Of a stretch of 64,000 nt of DNA, positions 44,489-49,049 are shown one piece after another. Numbering within the stretch: position 1 is the stretch's first letter; the number at the start of each line of letters is the position of its first letter. The notes under the pieces are model-generated. The model saw only the letters and a program-made list of their open reading frames with translations, made no database searches and was not told the DNA's origin. Origin of the DNA: Silvibacterium dinghuense (GTDB lineage: Bacteria > Acidobacteriota > Terriglobia > Terriglobales > Acidobacteriaceae); NCBI RefSeq assembly GCF_004123295.1, contig NZ_SDMK01000002.1, forward strand, positions 950,784 through 1,014,783. The letters are read 5' to 3'. The translations under genes were made by a program, and so were the position numbers.

Positions 44489-46939
44489 CTACTGGCAGGC
44501 CTCGCACGACTCCGGATTCTCAAGCGAGCAGGCAATCGCTGCGCTCGCAGTCACTGCAGGCGCCGGAGCAGCCGGCGCCGACACGCGGGCCGCGGCTCCC
44601 GGCACTGTCGTCTTGGCGATCTTCGTCGCCGGACGCGAACGCAGGTAGTAAGTCGTCTTCAGGCCCTTTTTCCACGCATACATATACATCGAAGAGAGGC
44701 GGCCGATGTTCGGCGACTCGGCAAAGAGGTTCAGTGACTGCGACTGATCGAGATACGCATTGCGCGCTGCGGCCATATCGATCAGCGAGCGCATCGGGAT
44801 CTCCCATACGGTGCGGTACAGCAGACGCACATCTTCGGGCAACTCTTCAATGCCCTGCACCGATCCTTCCGCCATCTTCAGCCGCACACGCATCTCCTCG
44901 TTCCACAGATTGCGCGCCTTCAGCTCGTCGATCAGGTAGCGGTTCACCTGCAGGAACTCGCCCGAGAGCGTCTCGCGCTTGAAGAGGTTCGAGATCTGCG
45001 GCTCGATGCACTCGTAGCAGCCAGCAATCGAGGCGATGGTTGCCGTCGGAGCGATGGCGATCAGCAGCGAGTTGCGCACGCCGCTCTTTGCAATCCGTGC
45101 CCGCAGCGCTTCCCAGCGAGCGAGATCGGCAGGCTGCACGCCCCACAGGTCGAACTGGAACTTGCCCTTGGCCATGCGCGTCTGCGCGAAGGTCTCATGC
45201 GGACCATACTTCTCGGCCAGCTCGCAGGTAGCTTCCATCGCCGCGTAGTAAATTTCTTCCTGGATGCGGGTCGAGAGCGCCTGCGCTTCAGGAGAATCGA
45301 AGGCCAGCCGCATCTGGAAGAAGACGTCCTGCAGGCCCATCAGGCCGAGACCCACCGGACGCCACTTCGCGTTGGAGCTTGCCGCTTCCTCGATCGGATA
45401 GTAGTTGATGTCGATCACGCGATCGAGCATCGGCACCGCAGTGTGCACGGTGCGCGCCAGCTTCTCGAAGTCGAAGCTCGGCCGTCCGTCGGCATCCCAG
45501 GTCACGTGCCGCCCAAGGTTGATCGAGCCCAGGTTGCACACCGCTGTCTGGTCGCTCGAGGTCACCTCGGTGATCTCGGTGCACAGGTTCGAGAGGTGCA
45601 CCACATTGCCCTGCTCGCCGGTCTGGTTGCACTTCAGGTTGGTCGCGTCCTTGAAGGTCATCCAGCCATTGCCGGTCTCGGCCAGCGTGCGCATCATGCG
45701 TGCATACAGGTCGCGAGCCTTGATCTGGCGGCGATAGAGCTTTTCCTCTTCGGCTTTCTCATAAGCAGCCTTGAAGTCATCACCATAAAGGTCGGGCAAC
45801 TGCGGCACGTCCTTCGGATCGAAGAGCGACCAGGTACCGTCGGCCTCCACGCGTTGCATGAAGAGGTCGGAGATCCAGTTGGCCAGATTCAGATTGTGGG
45901 TACGGCGCGCCACGTCGCCGGTGTTGTCTCGCAACTCGAGGAACTGCTCGATGTCCGCGTGCCACGGCTCCAGGTACACGCAGCATGCGCCCTTGCGCTT
46001 GCCACCCTGGTTGACCGCCGCCACGGAGCTGTCCAGCGTGCGCAGCCACGGCACGATGCCGTTTGAGAGGCCATTTGTCGCGCGGATCAACGATCCTTCG
46101 GAGCGCACACGGTGGAATGCGAGCCCGATACCGCCGGAGAACTTCGACAGCAGTGCAACATTCTTATAGGTGTCGTAGATGCTGTCGAGCGAGTCGAGCG
46201 GCGAATCGTGCAGATAGCACGAAGACATCTGCGCATGCTTGGTGCCCGAGTTGAAGAGCGTCGGCGAGGATGGCAGGTAGTCGAGCGACGCAATCAACCG
46301 ATAGAAGTTGATGGCCTCATTCGGCGACTGCGCCAGACCGCAGGCTACACGCAGAAAGAAGTGCTGCGGCGTCTCGATGATGCGGCGCGAAAGCGGATCG
46401 CGCAGAAGGTAGCGGTCGTAGACTGTGCGCAGGCCGAAGTATTCGAAGCGATCGGAGAAGCTGTCATCGATCGCGTCATTCAGCTTGCGGGCGTGGGTAT
46501 GCACGAACTCGGCCGTGGCGTTGCTGACCACACCTTCATGGTGCCCGTAGTTGATCGACTGCGAGAAGGAGTAGAGGTTGAAATTCGAAACCTCCTTCGT
46601 GATGGTCGCCAGCAGCAGGCGTGCCGCCAGCCGCGAATACTGCGGCTCTTCGGCGATCAGCGAAGCCGCCGTGTCGATCGAAATCTTGTCCAGCTCCTGC
46701 GTGGTCGCGCCATCATACAGGCCGCCGATCGTCTTCGAAGCCACGCGGATCGAATCCACATGCTGCAGCCCGTGAGCGCATCGCTGCACCGCACGCACGA
46801 TCTTGTTTACGTCCACCGGCTCGAGTGATCCATTGCGTTTGCGCACATGCATCACCGCCGTCTCTTCGGGCACGGGAAAACCCGGCGTCACATCGGAGAG
46901 GGTCGTCTGTACAGGAATGCGATCGGTAGTAGCGGCCAT
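44489..46939 (-). CDS. nrdA: Class Ia ribonucleotide reductase, large subunit
   Basis: Catalytic alpha subunit reducing ribonucleoside diphosphates. An N-terminal ATP-cone (about 28-115; VRKRNGSLEPVD) gives dATP inhibition. Active-site cysteines are visible in SSCYLHD, in SNLCTEI and in AVCNLGSINLG, and the radical-chain YY region lies near the C-terminus (TTYYLRS). The tail ends with a Cys pair (CEACQ) that accepts electrons from thioredoxin. 816 aa from ATG 46939, which has CCAGGAGA upstream; the open frame to 46984 is rejected. Confidence 0.96.
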   Translation of the reverse strand: MAATTDRIPVQTTLSDVTPGFPVPEETAVMHVRKRNGSLEPVDVNKIVRAVQRCAHGLQHVDSIRVASKTIGGLYDGATTQELDKISIDTAASLIAEEPQYSRLAARLLLATITKEVSNFNLYSFSQSINYGHHEGVVSNATAEFVHTHARKLNDAIDDSFSDRFEYFGLRTVYDRYLLRDPLSRRIIETPQHFFLRVACGLAQSPNEAINFYRLIASLDYLPSSPTLFNSGTKHAQMSSCYLHDSPLDSLDSIYDTYKNVALLSKFSGGIGLAFHRVRSEGSLIRATNGLSNGIVPWLRTLDSSVAAVNQGGKRKGACCVYLEPWHADIEQFLELRDNTGDVARRTHNLNLANWISDLFMQRVEADGTWSLFDPKDVPQLPDLYGDDFKAAYEKAEEEKLYRRQIKARDLYARMMRTLAETGNGWMTFKDATNLKCNQTGEQGNVVHLSNLCTEITEVTSSDQTAVCNLGSINLGRHVTWDADGRPSFDFEKLARTVHTAVPMLDRVIDINYYPIEEAASSNAKWRPVGLGLMGLQDVFFQMRLAFDSPEAQALSTRIQEEIYYAAMEATCELAEKYGPHETFAQTRMAKGKFQFDLWGVQPADLARWEALRARIAKSGVRNSLLIAIAPTATIASIAGCYECIEPQISNLFKRETLSGEFLQVNRYLIDELKARNLWNEEMRVRLKMAEGSVQGIEELPEDVRLLYRTVWEIPMRSLIDMAAARNAYLDQSQSLNLFAESPNIGRLSSMYMYAWKKGLKTTYYLRSRPATKIAKTTVPGAAARVSAPAAPAPAVTASAAIACSLENPESCEACQ

Positions 46940-46988
46940 CGGGAGAGTCTCCTGGGCCTCGGAAAGCATGCGAAGAAACAGCACCAGC

Positions 46989-47045
46989 CGCTCCGGGCGG
47001 AGCAGCGCCAGTTACCGTTACTTCGCCTCCCCTCGGAGGCGCGAA
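46989..47045 (-). promoter_or_regulatory. Hairpins between riboswitch and nrdA (expression platform)
   Basis: On the minus strand a CGCCTCC/GGAGGCG stem (about 47026-47041) and a GCTCC/GGAGC stem (about 46989-47002) follow the cobalamin aptamer. They are candidates for the switching terminator or anti-Shine-Dalgarno. No T-run is attached, so translational or Rho-dependent control is more likely. No gene lies in 46940-47339 besides the riboswitch and its promoter. Confidence 0.5.
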
Positions 47046-47053
47046 CGTATATT

Positions 47054-47220
47054 TCCGTTGGCAGGTCTTCGGACTATGCAGGTTCGAACCTACTTGCCAG
47101 ACTTCCCGAGGTCCGAACGGGACCCAGTGTCCTCGTGGCTTTCGTACCTGCTAACCGCTGCGGGGCAGTTCCGGAGTTTCACCGGATTCCCTTTTCATCC
47201 TCCTCATAGAAGGAACCATC
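47054..47220 (-). promoter_or_regulatory. Cobalamin riboswitch upstream of nrdAB
   Basis: The minus-strand sequence carries the AdoCbl aptamer signature in order: GGTTCC with AGGATGAAAAGGGAA, then CCGGTGAAACTCCGG, CTGCCCCGCAGCGGT, GAAAGCCACGAGGACACTGG (with the B12-box), and the closing GTCCGAAGACCTGCC. Length, order and spacing fit the class. B12 binding is expected to switch off the downstream gene, here B12-independent ribonucleotide reductase. Confidence 0.93.
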
Positions 47221-47231
47221 GGAATAAACCC

Positions 47232-47261
47232 ACTATAAGTTGAGTCGACAGCCACAAACAA
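47232..47261 (-). promoter_or_regulatory. Candidate nrdAB promoter
   Basis: TTGTTT (47256-47261) and TATAGT (47232-47237), 18 bp apart on the minus strand, put the transcript start near 47225, just ahead of the riboswitch. An imperfect inverted repeat, CACCCATTGTGG (47265-47276) against 47302-47313, lies immediately upstream. It does not resemble an NrdR box and may instead end esterase transcription. Confidence 0.5.
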
Positions 47262-47339
47262 GACCACCCATTGTGGATATTCTGCAAATCTCTGCAAAAC
47301 CCCACCATGGGTGACCGGTAGCCGCTCTCTATTAACGAA

Positions 47340-49049
47340 TCAGTAACGCCAGCTCTTTACATCCGCTCCTTCGGGCGCCGTTCTCAGCATGTGATCGACC
47401 ATCTGCGGAAGCACCCGCTGCGGCCAGTTCGCATTGTTTTCCTGCATCGTGTACTCGGCCGGACCGCCCGTATAGCAATGCGGCTCACCCGGCCCGTACT
47501 GAAACTGGGCGTCCGAGTGCGGATTGCGCGTCGCCTCGAGCGACTTCTGTAGATCATGCACCGCGTTGTTCAGGAAATAGGTGTCGCCGTCTCCGACCGC
47601 GAGGTGCAGCTTGCCCTCGAGCTTCGGTCCCAGCGTCGCCCAGTTCTTCTGCATATAGGCGTTCAGGTCGTAGTGCTCATGCCAGTACTCGACGACCTGC
47701 TTGTCGATCTCCCCCGTCAGCGGATCGATCACCTGTGCCGGGTAGCCATCTGCTCCCTGGGGTGAAAAGACCGCCTGCCAGATATTCCACTGCTCGGTGG
47801 AGCGCCCATGCGTGCCCAGCACATATTCGAAGCGGAACTCAGCATCGGTGTTCGCGATGATCGAGCCATCCGGCTTGCGATCAGCCGCTATCGGAATCTC
47901 GCCGAAGTCGCCCTTGCGGACAAAGGCATTCGCATCGTTGTAGAGATCGATGTTCTGATAGCCGTGGAAGTCCACCGGGTCAGGGCACGCTGCCCAGGTT
48001 CCGTTGTACATATCCGGATAGAAGACTTGCGTCGCCAAAGCTTCCCAGCCGCCGGTCGAGCCGCCGAAGGTAGCGCGCGCCCATCCCTGCCCAAGGCCGC
48101 GATACTTCTTCTCGATAAACGGGATCAGCTCCTCGTTGATCGCCGAGCCGTAAGGGCCCACATTCGCCGAGTCCACCACGTACGAGTCGTCATAGTATGG
48201 GTTCGCGTTCTGCACGTAGATCATGATCACGCGCGGCAGCCGACCCGAGGTCCAGTCCTGATAAAAGCGGTAGCCCGCGCTTCCACGGCGCGGACCGCCC
48301 TTTGCCTTCGGGTCAGGAGGCGTCGTCACCCACGGCAGCGGCCCGAAGCCCGCATGGTAGTGATCCTGATAGACAACCAGCGGATAGTGCGCATCCGGAT
48401 GCTCGTCGAAGCCATCGGGCAGCAGCACCCATGCGCCCAGGTAGACGTCGCGTCCCCAGAATTTACTCAGCTTTTCACTGCGGAATCGCTCGTACTTCAG
48501 CCACTTCGCGCCAGGATCCTTTGCTGCCATCACCGCCGGATCTTCGTCCGTGCCCTCGATGGGAGGAATCACCTTGTCCAGCGTCAGCTTCAGCACAGTC
48601 TTCGACTTCGGATCAAAATGCACCTTCACCGGCGCGTCGTAAGGATTGCCTGGCTTGTGATTCCAGTGTTGTCCTTCGCCCTTGTCCGGCGGCAGCCAGA
48701 GCGTCTTGCCATTTTCGAGGTGAAACTCTTCGTAGACGTTGAAGACGGCCTGCACCGTGTAATCGCCCGCGTCCAGATCGTTCAGCGTCTTGCGCGGATA
48801 GCCGACGGTCGCCGCATCCACCACGATCGGCTTCGCCGGGTCCTGGTTGACCACATCCACGCCGAATCCCTGCGAGGAAAGATAGTTCTCCTCCAGCTGA
48901 TCACGCGGCTCCGACTCCGTGTTCTTCGAGAAGACCAGGACCAGGTGCCCGTTCAAAGGCTTCGAAGCCGGAATCGAAACCTCAATCCGCTGCGCATGCG
49001 CACAGACGCACGTAAGGACAGCAACTGCCGCAATTGCCAGACGATGCAT
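47340..49049 (-). CDS. Secreted esterase-family hydrolase
   Basis: 569-aa exported alpha/beta hydrolase. From ATG 49049 (AGGAGA upstream) a signal peptide ends at CAHAQ. A beta-rich N-terminal region (to about 150) precedes the hydrolase, whose nucleophile is Ser in FGGSTGGWEA. The late His in PHCYTGG may be catalytic. The organisation is like the esterase-D/enterochelin-esterase branch. Substrate unknown. The frame open to 49466 runs into the next gene and is not used. Confidence 0.78.
   Translation of the reverse strand: MHRLAIAAVAVLTCVCAHAQRIEVSIPASKPLNGHLVLVFSKNTESEPRDQLEENYLSSQGFGVDVVNQDPAKPIVVDAATVGYPRKTLNDLDAGDYTVQAVFNVYEEFHLENGKTLWLPPDKGEGQHWNHKPGNPYDAPVKVHFDPKSKTVLKLTLDKVIPPIEGTDEDPAVMAAKDPGAKWLKYERFRSEKLSKFWGRDVYLGAWVLLPDGFDEHPDAHYPLVVYQDHYHAGFGPLPWVTTPPDPKAKGGPRRGSAGYRFYQDWTSGRLPRVIMIYVQNANPYYDDSYVVDSANVGPYGSAINEELIPFIEKKYRGLGQGWARATFGGSTGGWEALATQVFYPDMYNGTWAACPDPVDFHGYQNIDLYNDANAFVRKGDFGEIPIAADRKPDGSIIANTDAEFRFEYVLGTHGRSTEQWNIWQAVFSPQGADGYPAQVIDPLTGEIDKQVVEYWHEHYDLNAYMQKNWATLGPKLEGKLHLAVGDGDTYFLNNAVHDLQKSLEATRNPHSDAQFQYGPGEPHCYTGGPAEYTMQENNANWPQRVLPQMVDHMLRTAPEGADVKSWRY

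Follow-up and report, generated by a model that had tools for sequence, protein, structure and literature searches.

The nrdAB operon of Silvibacterium dinghuense, which encodes a class I ribonucleotide reductase, is preceded by a full-length cobalamin riboswitch aptamer, and we put at about 90% the probability that this is a repressing adenosylcobalamin riboswitch that places NrdAB under intracellular B12, at whatever level the control operates. An earlier note on this DNA had read the leader as a B12 switch over a B12-independent reductase, and this reading is supported by the strong aptamer, by a class II reductase (NrdJ) and genes for B12 uptake and salvage in the same genome, and by the family-wide joint retention of switch and NrdJ. 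We infer the binding of the ligand, the sign and size of the B12 response and the exact exchange of pairings from the nucleotide sequence. Positions refer to the window, the whole stretch of 64,000 nucleotides that was analysed, in which the aptamer is followed on the same strand by nrdA and then nrdB:

47235 to 47043, minus strand: cobalamin riboswitch aptamer (RF00174), cmscan, 108.9 bits
44489 to 46939, minus strand: nrdA, class I large subunit, TIGR02506 714 bits (cut-off 341), with PF03477, PF00317 and PF02867
43377 to 44432, minus strand: nrdB, class I small subunit of 351 aa, PF00268 269 bits

The cmscan search of the whole window covered model positions 1-189 of 189 at an E-value of 2.4e-26, and the covariance score of 108.9 bits is well above the gathering score of 31.5 bits. 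The Rfam scan that the earlier note had proposed thus bears out its claim of an intact cobalamin aptamer in front of nrdA. The span given there, 47054-47261, holds nearly the whole aptamer and the promoter-like pair, but its two ends are displaced by 11 and 26 bases. The likely start of nrdA is the ATG at 46939-46937, which has AGGAG in front of it and the top score among the start codons, above that of the GTG at 46984 with which the open frame begins; with this ATG as the start, the distance from the end of the aptamer to the start codon is 103 nt.

The domains and family models expected for NrdA and NrdB are present, with TIGR02506 over its cut-off and PF00268 at 269 bits, and NrdA contains one ATP cone and a CxxC near the C-terminus. 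The match of NrdB to PRK07209 (265 bits) is under the cut-off of 309 for that model. An alignment to 6y2n/2ani places a tyrosine at the radical position of NrdB, and the first metal ligand is ambiguous in the same alignment. The class Ia label given previously is a reasonable, if provisional, one for nrdAB in view of this tyrosine; the solved R2 chains nearest by sequence are 6y2n and 2ani/1syy, the latter a Chlamydia R2. Elsewhere in the window, two tandem nadA (NAD+-I) riboswitch domains were identified on the minus strand at 9911-9858 and 9825-9775, with scores of 43.9 and 43.4 bits.

The assembly (5.1 Mb in nine contigs, 99.9% complete) encodes a class II NrdJ, located at L008:511-3765, which matches PRK06556 with 1477 bits (cut-off 859) and contains PF08471. 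Such an enzyme had been predicted to be encoded elsewhere in this genome, and the suggested search for nrdJ and B12 genes also recovered uptake-type and salvage genes. Five cobalamin switches in the genome score above the cut-off and one just below it, and none of the six is near nrdJ. By position and domains, they were assigned as follows:

Cobalamin switch before nrdA
Cobalamin switch before metE (TIGR01371 1023 bits)
Cobalamin switch before cobU
Cobalamin switch at the beginning of the gene for a TonB-dependent receptor, in an operon that continues with cobT, cobS and a cobC-like phosphatase gene
Cobalamin switch before the gene for an outer-membrane beta-barrel protein
Weak cobalamin switch (30.5 bits) near genes for a BtuF/BtuC/BtuD-like importer

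Genes for CbiB, an aminotransferase, a CbiA/CobB-type protein, BluB and a cobalamin adenosyltransferase are also located near these switches. MetH is present as well (activation domain 409 bits), and metE, behind its switch, and metH are a second pair of B12-free and B12-dependent enzymes. CbiC/CobH, the one ring-synthesis family that was searched for, was not found in the genome, which suggests that corrinoids are probably scavenged and that the corrin ring is probably not made by this organism. A CobN/Mg-chelatase-type protein of 1503 aa is encoded beside the B12 importer genes despite the lack of CbiC (L009 2001-6512, minus strand), and its presence in the cluster makes the salvage interpretation less certain.

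The nearest relatives by NrdA are Acidobacteriaceae, Terriglobus among them, and a sample of 200 genomes from this family was studied. Class I NrdA matches with E < 1e-150 were obtained in 43 genomes, all of whose leaders were scanned with Rfam; weaker NrdA rows, which represent other reductases and a fragment in G312, are outside this set. RF00174 was identified in 32 of the leaders and the AdoCbl-II aptamer (RF01689) in 2, with no match in 9. Switch and NrdJ are found together in 34 of the 43 genomes, neither is found in 8, and a single genome combines NrdJ with a broken switch. The search with NF005122 recovered NrdJ in all 34 switch genomes, in 33 at a best E of 0 and in G261, the assembly of which is 71% complete, as a fragment at 1e-107. 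No NrdJ was found in 8 of the 9 switch-less genomes, each of which gave a single NF005122 match at the level of NrdA (4e-46 to 7e-52), and we therefore conclude that these 8 have no NrdJ. The model also matches the other NrdJ subfamily, at 4e-77 to 3e-92, so that this subfamily would show too, and two of the 8 genomes (G237, G330) are single-contig assemblies. In G289, NrdJ is kept and the nrdA leader (L126, about 4125-4066, minus strand) is an aptamer relic that has lost its core and retains only about the first third unaltered. Cobalamin switches are present elsewhere in all 8 sample genomes that lack NrdJ, as well as in Terriglobus roseus, and the absence is thus specific to nrdA.

The AdoCbl-II aptamer precedes nrdA in three relatives (G268, G287 and L047), at L128 4082-4158, L131 1292-1368 and L047 2789-2865. 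These aptamers are 77 nt long and identical, and the corresponding NrdA proteins form one supported clade. Additional cobalamin switches were observed near nrdA in a few genomes, in two of them downstream on the same strand (L017 4978-5170, L157 259-452) and in three divergent from nrdA's own switch (L123 4626-4824, L150 1458-1659, L154 3373-3572).

We also scanned 31 of 80 NrdA loci from named records for switches. A switch precedes nrdA in 7 of the 18 acidobacterial loci (6 RF00174, 1 AdoCbl-II), with none in the other 11, and in 5 of the 13 loci from other groups (L059, L097, L098, L106, L107). NrdJ was sought in the genomes of 12 of the 31 scanned loci. It was recovered for 10 of 10 switch loci (L043, L044, L045, L047, L049, L082, L100, L059, L097, L106), of which L049 is the same locus as G230 and also one locus with L156, and was not found for the two switch-less loci checked, from Terriglobus roseus DSM 18391 and a Terriglobus metagenome-assembled genome. 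In the complete sequence of T. roseus DSM 18391 (G340, C1), nrdA matches are located at 2456931 and 2917454 and cobalamin switches at 2743416 and 3203931; the members of each pair score equally and are separated by about 460.5 kb, so that this sequence may contain a very large duplication.

The independence of these associations was assessed on a NrdA tree of 42 rows, of which 38 were scored, the four from other acidobacterial families being left out. Switch and NrdJ are both present in 28 of the scored rows, both absent in 9, and in 1 NrdJ is present on its own. The distribution needs three changes for the switch and two for NrdJ, with two independent co-changes in the same direction, and with two such pairs only, significance is out of reach. 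A divergent NrdA lineage, about 45% identical, has the same switch and platform, and also NrdJ, in 7 of its 8 genomes (L148, L150-L155), while the eighth, G279 (L149), has neither switch nor NrdJ and represents a third case, off the tree.

The link does not hold generally in the rest of the phylum. In a sample of 149 genomes, 17 strong NrdA loci were examined, of which 7, six from the family plus G014, carry a switch immediately before nrdA and 9 have none, with no Rfam switch match in the nrdA leaders of G051 and G063 among others. In the remaining locus, G086 (L027), an ORF of 146 aa intervenes between the cmscan match and nrdA, and it was rejected as a direct nrdA switch. Of the nine switch-less genomes, which include G114, G141, G096 and G063, the four that were examined for another NrdJ subfamily, one that escapes PF08471, are G105, G123, G038 and G051, and TIGR02504 matches over the cut-off identified it in each of them. 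Three of the four rows left out of the tree count are G123, G105 and G038. G015 encodes a class II NrdJ of the PF08471 type and has no switch before nrdA. A strict rule that the switch is present if and only if NrdJ is present is therefore broken outside the family by G015 and the four genomes with the other subfamily. Intein domains (Intein_splicing, LAGLIDADG_3) were observed inside the class II NrdJ of G086 and G123 (L185, L187).

Between the aptamer and the start codon, we propose an expression platform composed of the following elements:

47165 to 47161, minus strand: L5, CCCCG, within the aptamer, proposed kissing-loop partner of L13
47024 to 47041, minus strand: P13 hairpin (CGCCUC/GAGGCG) predicted by RNAalifold, with loop L13, CGAGGG, at 47035-47030
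47013 to 47026, minus strand: putative stem B, 5' strand, the first bases of which are also in the P13 3' strand
46970 to 46983, minus strand: putative stem B, 3' strand, UGCUGUUUCUUCGC, pairing with 47026-47013; the pairing is conserved across 19 relatives, where some of the changes are compensatory
46956 to 46960, minus strand: GAGGC, proposed B12-free partner of the P13 5' strand (GCCUC, 47040-47036)
46934 to 46958, minus strand: proposed RBS-sequestering hairpin, GGCC 46958-46955 with GGCC 46937-46934 and inner GGAG/CUCC

The proposed RBS hairpin encloses the AGGAG (46953-46949) and the AUG, and the window sequence of this segment folds with -10.7 kcal/mol. According to the mechanism that we propose, adenosylcobalamin would bind the aptamer and L5 would then dock onto L13, thereby locking P13. 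With P13 locked, the RBS and AUG of nrdA would fold into their own hairpin, translation would be off, and dNTPs would be supplied by NrdJ in place of NrdAB. When adenosylcobalamin is lacking, P13 would open. Its 5' strand could then pair with the GAGGC that directly precedes the RBS, and its 3' strand would lengthen stem B; this would open the RBS hairpin and allow NrdAB to be produced.

The kissing loop was compared in 43 nrdA leader rows, representing 42 distinct loci with G086 included. The first base of L5 (YCCCG) is C in 37 rows and U in 6. L13 (CGNGGR) ends on G in 36 of the rows with C and on A in all six with U, and one row (L028) is ambiguous. The covariation is thus consistent in 41 of the 42 distinct loci (in the 43 rows, C/G 36, U/A 6, ambiguous 1); the initial search pattern for L13 took only A or G at this base, which left combinations of C with A and U with G possible, yet none appeared. 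The U/A rows are the RF00174 loci L015, L125 and L082 and the three AdoCbl-II loci of one clade; L015 and L125 are located apart on the NrdA tree, and L082 is off that tree. With the N bulged, L5 and L13 are predicted to form five pairs, and both a bulged kissing loop and the L5 consensus UCCCG are mentioned for this riboswitch class in PMC10653944. A different kissing loop, in which the CCGGUG..CCGG hairpin was taken as L5 and its partner was a U-rich loop upstream of the RBS, was dropped, because CUG-YCCCG-CAG varies together with the loop of the hairpin that directly follows P1; the assignment of YCCCG as L5 agrees with the published consensus (PMC10653944).

The platform was aligned in 19 compact leaders, picked by eye from the 43 rows for alignability. 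In these, 96.5% of the cells are paired in P13, 82.8% in stem B and 94.7% in the outer RBS helix, and the alternative pairing of the P13 5' strand with GAGGC is possible in 96.8% of the cells, with no pair changed on both sides. For the set of P13, stem B and RBS helix, the covariation score was matched by 1 of 500 shuffles and for the alternative B12-free set by 3 of 500; the number of pairs changed on both sides was as high in 65 and 12 of 500 shuffles, respectively, while the counts of pair types do not stand out (242 and 279 of 500). Slid controls pair 43-71% of the cells as compared to 89% for the first set, and 43-61% as compared to 88% for the B12-free set. The 19 sequences are related, and the shuffles therefore overstate the case. 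The RNAalifold prediction for the same 19 relatives, made without a structure supplied, contains P13, stem B in its inner portion and an RBS/AUG hairpin with its inner pairs. Duplex energies of the anti-RBS pairing showed no preference for own over swapped partners, with 1424 of 5000 permutations doing equally well, a result explained by the near-invariance of the P13 5' strand.

The energies of the RBS hairpin were computed for 40 switch rows (one locus twice), with starts set by script and three by hand. The comparison with 23 controls gave p-values of 0.03 for the minimum free energy, 0.15 for pairing of the Shine-Dalgarno sequence (SD) and 0.56 for pairing of the AUG. The hairpin is no stabler than in 10 switch-less controls from the family, one of which is the relic (the controls are slightly stabler on average, -13.1 vs. 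-11.9 kcal/mol, p 0.22), and for SD pairing the comparison with these 10 controls gave a p-value of 0.048.

A candidate promoter is located upstream of the aptamer, and two boxes resembling binding sites for NrdR lie over it:

47232 to 47261, minus strand: promoter-like pair, TTGTTT 47261-47256 and TATAGT 47237-47232, from the sequence
47261 to 47276, minus strand: NrdR-like box 1, 10 of 16 matches, 31 bp from box 2
47230 to 47245, minus strand: NrdR-like box 2, 12 of 16 matches, over the -10

A simple scan of 46900-47345 for the promoter consensus identified no site reaching 9 of 12 matches, while an arrangement of TTGnnn, 17 or 18 nt and a TATAGT-like hexamer just before the aptamer is seen by eye in many of 36 upstream regions. 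NrdR is encoded in the genome (194.5 bits), and the boxes were scored against an assumed NrdR box consensus with a spacing of about 31 bp. The window pair has 22 of 32 matches to this consensus, a value as high being obtained in 0 of 200 resampled sequences. No single NrdR box within 3 mismatches was found in the window, and the boxes are visible only by a paired, relaxed search. This search was applied to 38 of the 43 leader rows, with spacings of 30-33 bp allowed, and gave a best pair with a spacing of 30 or 31 bp in 36 of the 38. The mean is 21.3 of 32 matches to the assumed consensus, as compared to 16.3 in first-order resampled sequence, and p is 0.04 or less in 33 of the 38, the exceptions being L014, L015, L134, L137 and L150; in L141, the best pair is located elsewhere. 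These patterns suggest two layers of control, with NrdR acting on transcription and the switch thereafter.

The platform makes it fairly probable that the control is exerted at translation. Repression by B12 at the level of transcription, through termination or RNA turnover instead of hiding of the RBS, competes with this step only and is in our judgement unlikely, if by no means negligible: the precedent of Streptomyces nrdABS is reported to be transcriptional (PMC4991794) and the RBS hairpin is no more stable than in the family controls, but the RBS/AUG hairpin is conserved in 19 relatives in the RNAalifold prediction, and an intrinsic terminator was rejected as the platform since no terminator-like site was found on the coding strand in 46900-47345.

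Two other explanations would affect the reading as a whole. It is very improbable that the nrdA switch is idle here and that its co-occurrence with NrdJ reflects common descent only, although independent losses are few, NrdJ is retained in G289 where the aptamer is broken, and outside the family there are genomes that combine both reductases with a switch-less nrdA; the aptamer in the window matches 189 of 189 model positions at 108.9 bits with the L5-L13 pairing intact, and, except for G289, every genome of the family sample that lacks the switch also lacks NrdJ. These genomes fall into two clades on the NrdA tree and one divergent lineage. Still slightly less credence is due to an activating switch, by which B12 would turn nrdAB on. 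The sign of the response is unreadable from the aptamer, and one activating corrinoid riboswitch, of cobT in Alkalihalobacillus halodurans, has been described (PMC10653944). Against activation, NrdAB needs no B12, the family keeps the switch where NrdJ exists, as fits mutual replacement, metE as the other B12-free twin is likewise behind a switch in this genome, and the RBS hairpin can form in the presence of P13. We thus retain the repressing switch as the preferred reading.

Repression of B12-free isozymes by B12 switches is a known strategy for saving a cofactor, and the nrdAB operon of the Acidobacteriaceae, a family of soil acidobacteria, is very probably a new instance of it. Less ordinary are the family-wide joint retention, the replacement of one aptamer class by another upstream of nrdA in a single clade, and the double control that may operate here. 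We give even odds to the broader scenario in which the choice of reductase in the Acidobacteriaceae is wired to scavenged B12, with nrdAB behind a double gate of NrdR-like boxes and a translational B12 switch, the switch being discarded upon loss of NrdJ, and one clade having swapped the Cobalamin for the AdoCbl-II aptamer with place and function kept. If this is true, the presence or absence of this leader would predict the use of B12 for DNA synthesis in a member of the family. S. dinghuense, which is probably without corrin-ring synthesis as judged from the one step tested, would have to obtain its B12 from neighbouring organisms. Natural replicates exist within the family, with the switch kept, missing where NrdJ is missing too, broken, or belonging to a different aptamer class, so that cultured relatives such as Terriglobus allow a direct test of the idea that the switch pays only as long as the B12-dependent twin is there.

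Among the matches listed in the open-licence literature, no acidobacterial case was found by title or start of the abstract. The closest parallel is nrdABS of Streptomyces coelicolor, where a cobalamin riboswitch likewise precedes a class Ia operon in a genome with a class II NrdJ, adenosylcobalamin controls the operon (PMC4991794) and the control is reported to be transcriptional (Borovok 2006 as cited in PMC4991794). The system described here differs in belonging to another phylum, in a platform that suggests translational instead of transcriptional control, in the NrdR-like boxes at the promoter, and in the gene after nrdB, which encodes an ABC ATPase. In delta-proteobacteria, B12 elements have been described before nrdDG, with a predicted shut-off by B12 in genomes with NrdJ, and repression of B12-independent reductases and methionine synthases by B12 switches is presented as a general theme (PMC545781). 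The nrdAB operon resembles this case in that a B12-independent reductase is predicted to be repressed where NrdJ exists, and differs in that the enzyme is the class I NrdAB, in Acidobacteriaceae.

With regard to the mechanism, the L5-L13 kissing loop of E. coli btuB and env8HyCbl is reported to stabilize P13 and thereby to favor an RBS hairpin (PMC10653944). The nrdA leader would share these three elements, here as read from sequence, while the gene controlled is a reductase and a conserved extra stem B is predicted between P13 and the RBS, sharing bases with the P13 3' strand, unlike in E. coli btuB and env8HyCbl. The AdoCbl-II aptamer (RF01689) of the three relatives belongs to the same Rfam clan and occupies the same place before nrdA with a smaller aptamer of 77 nt.
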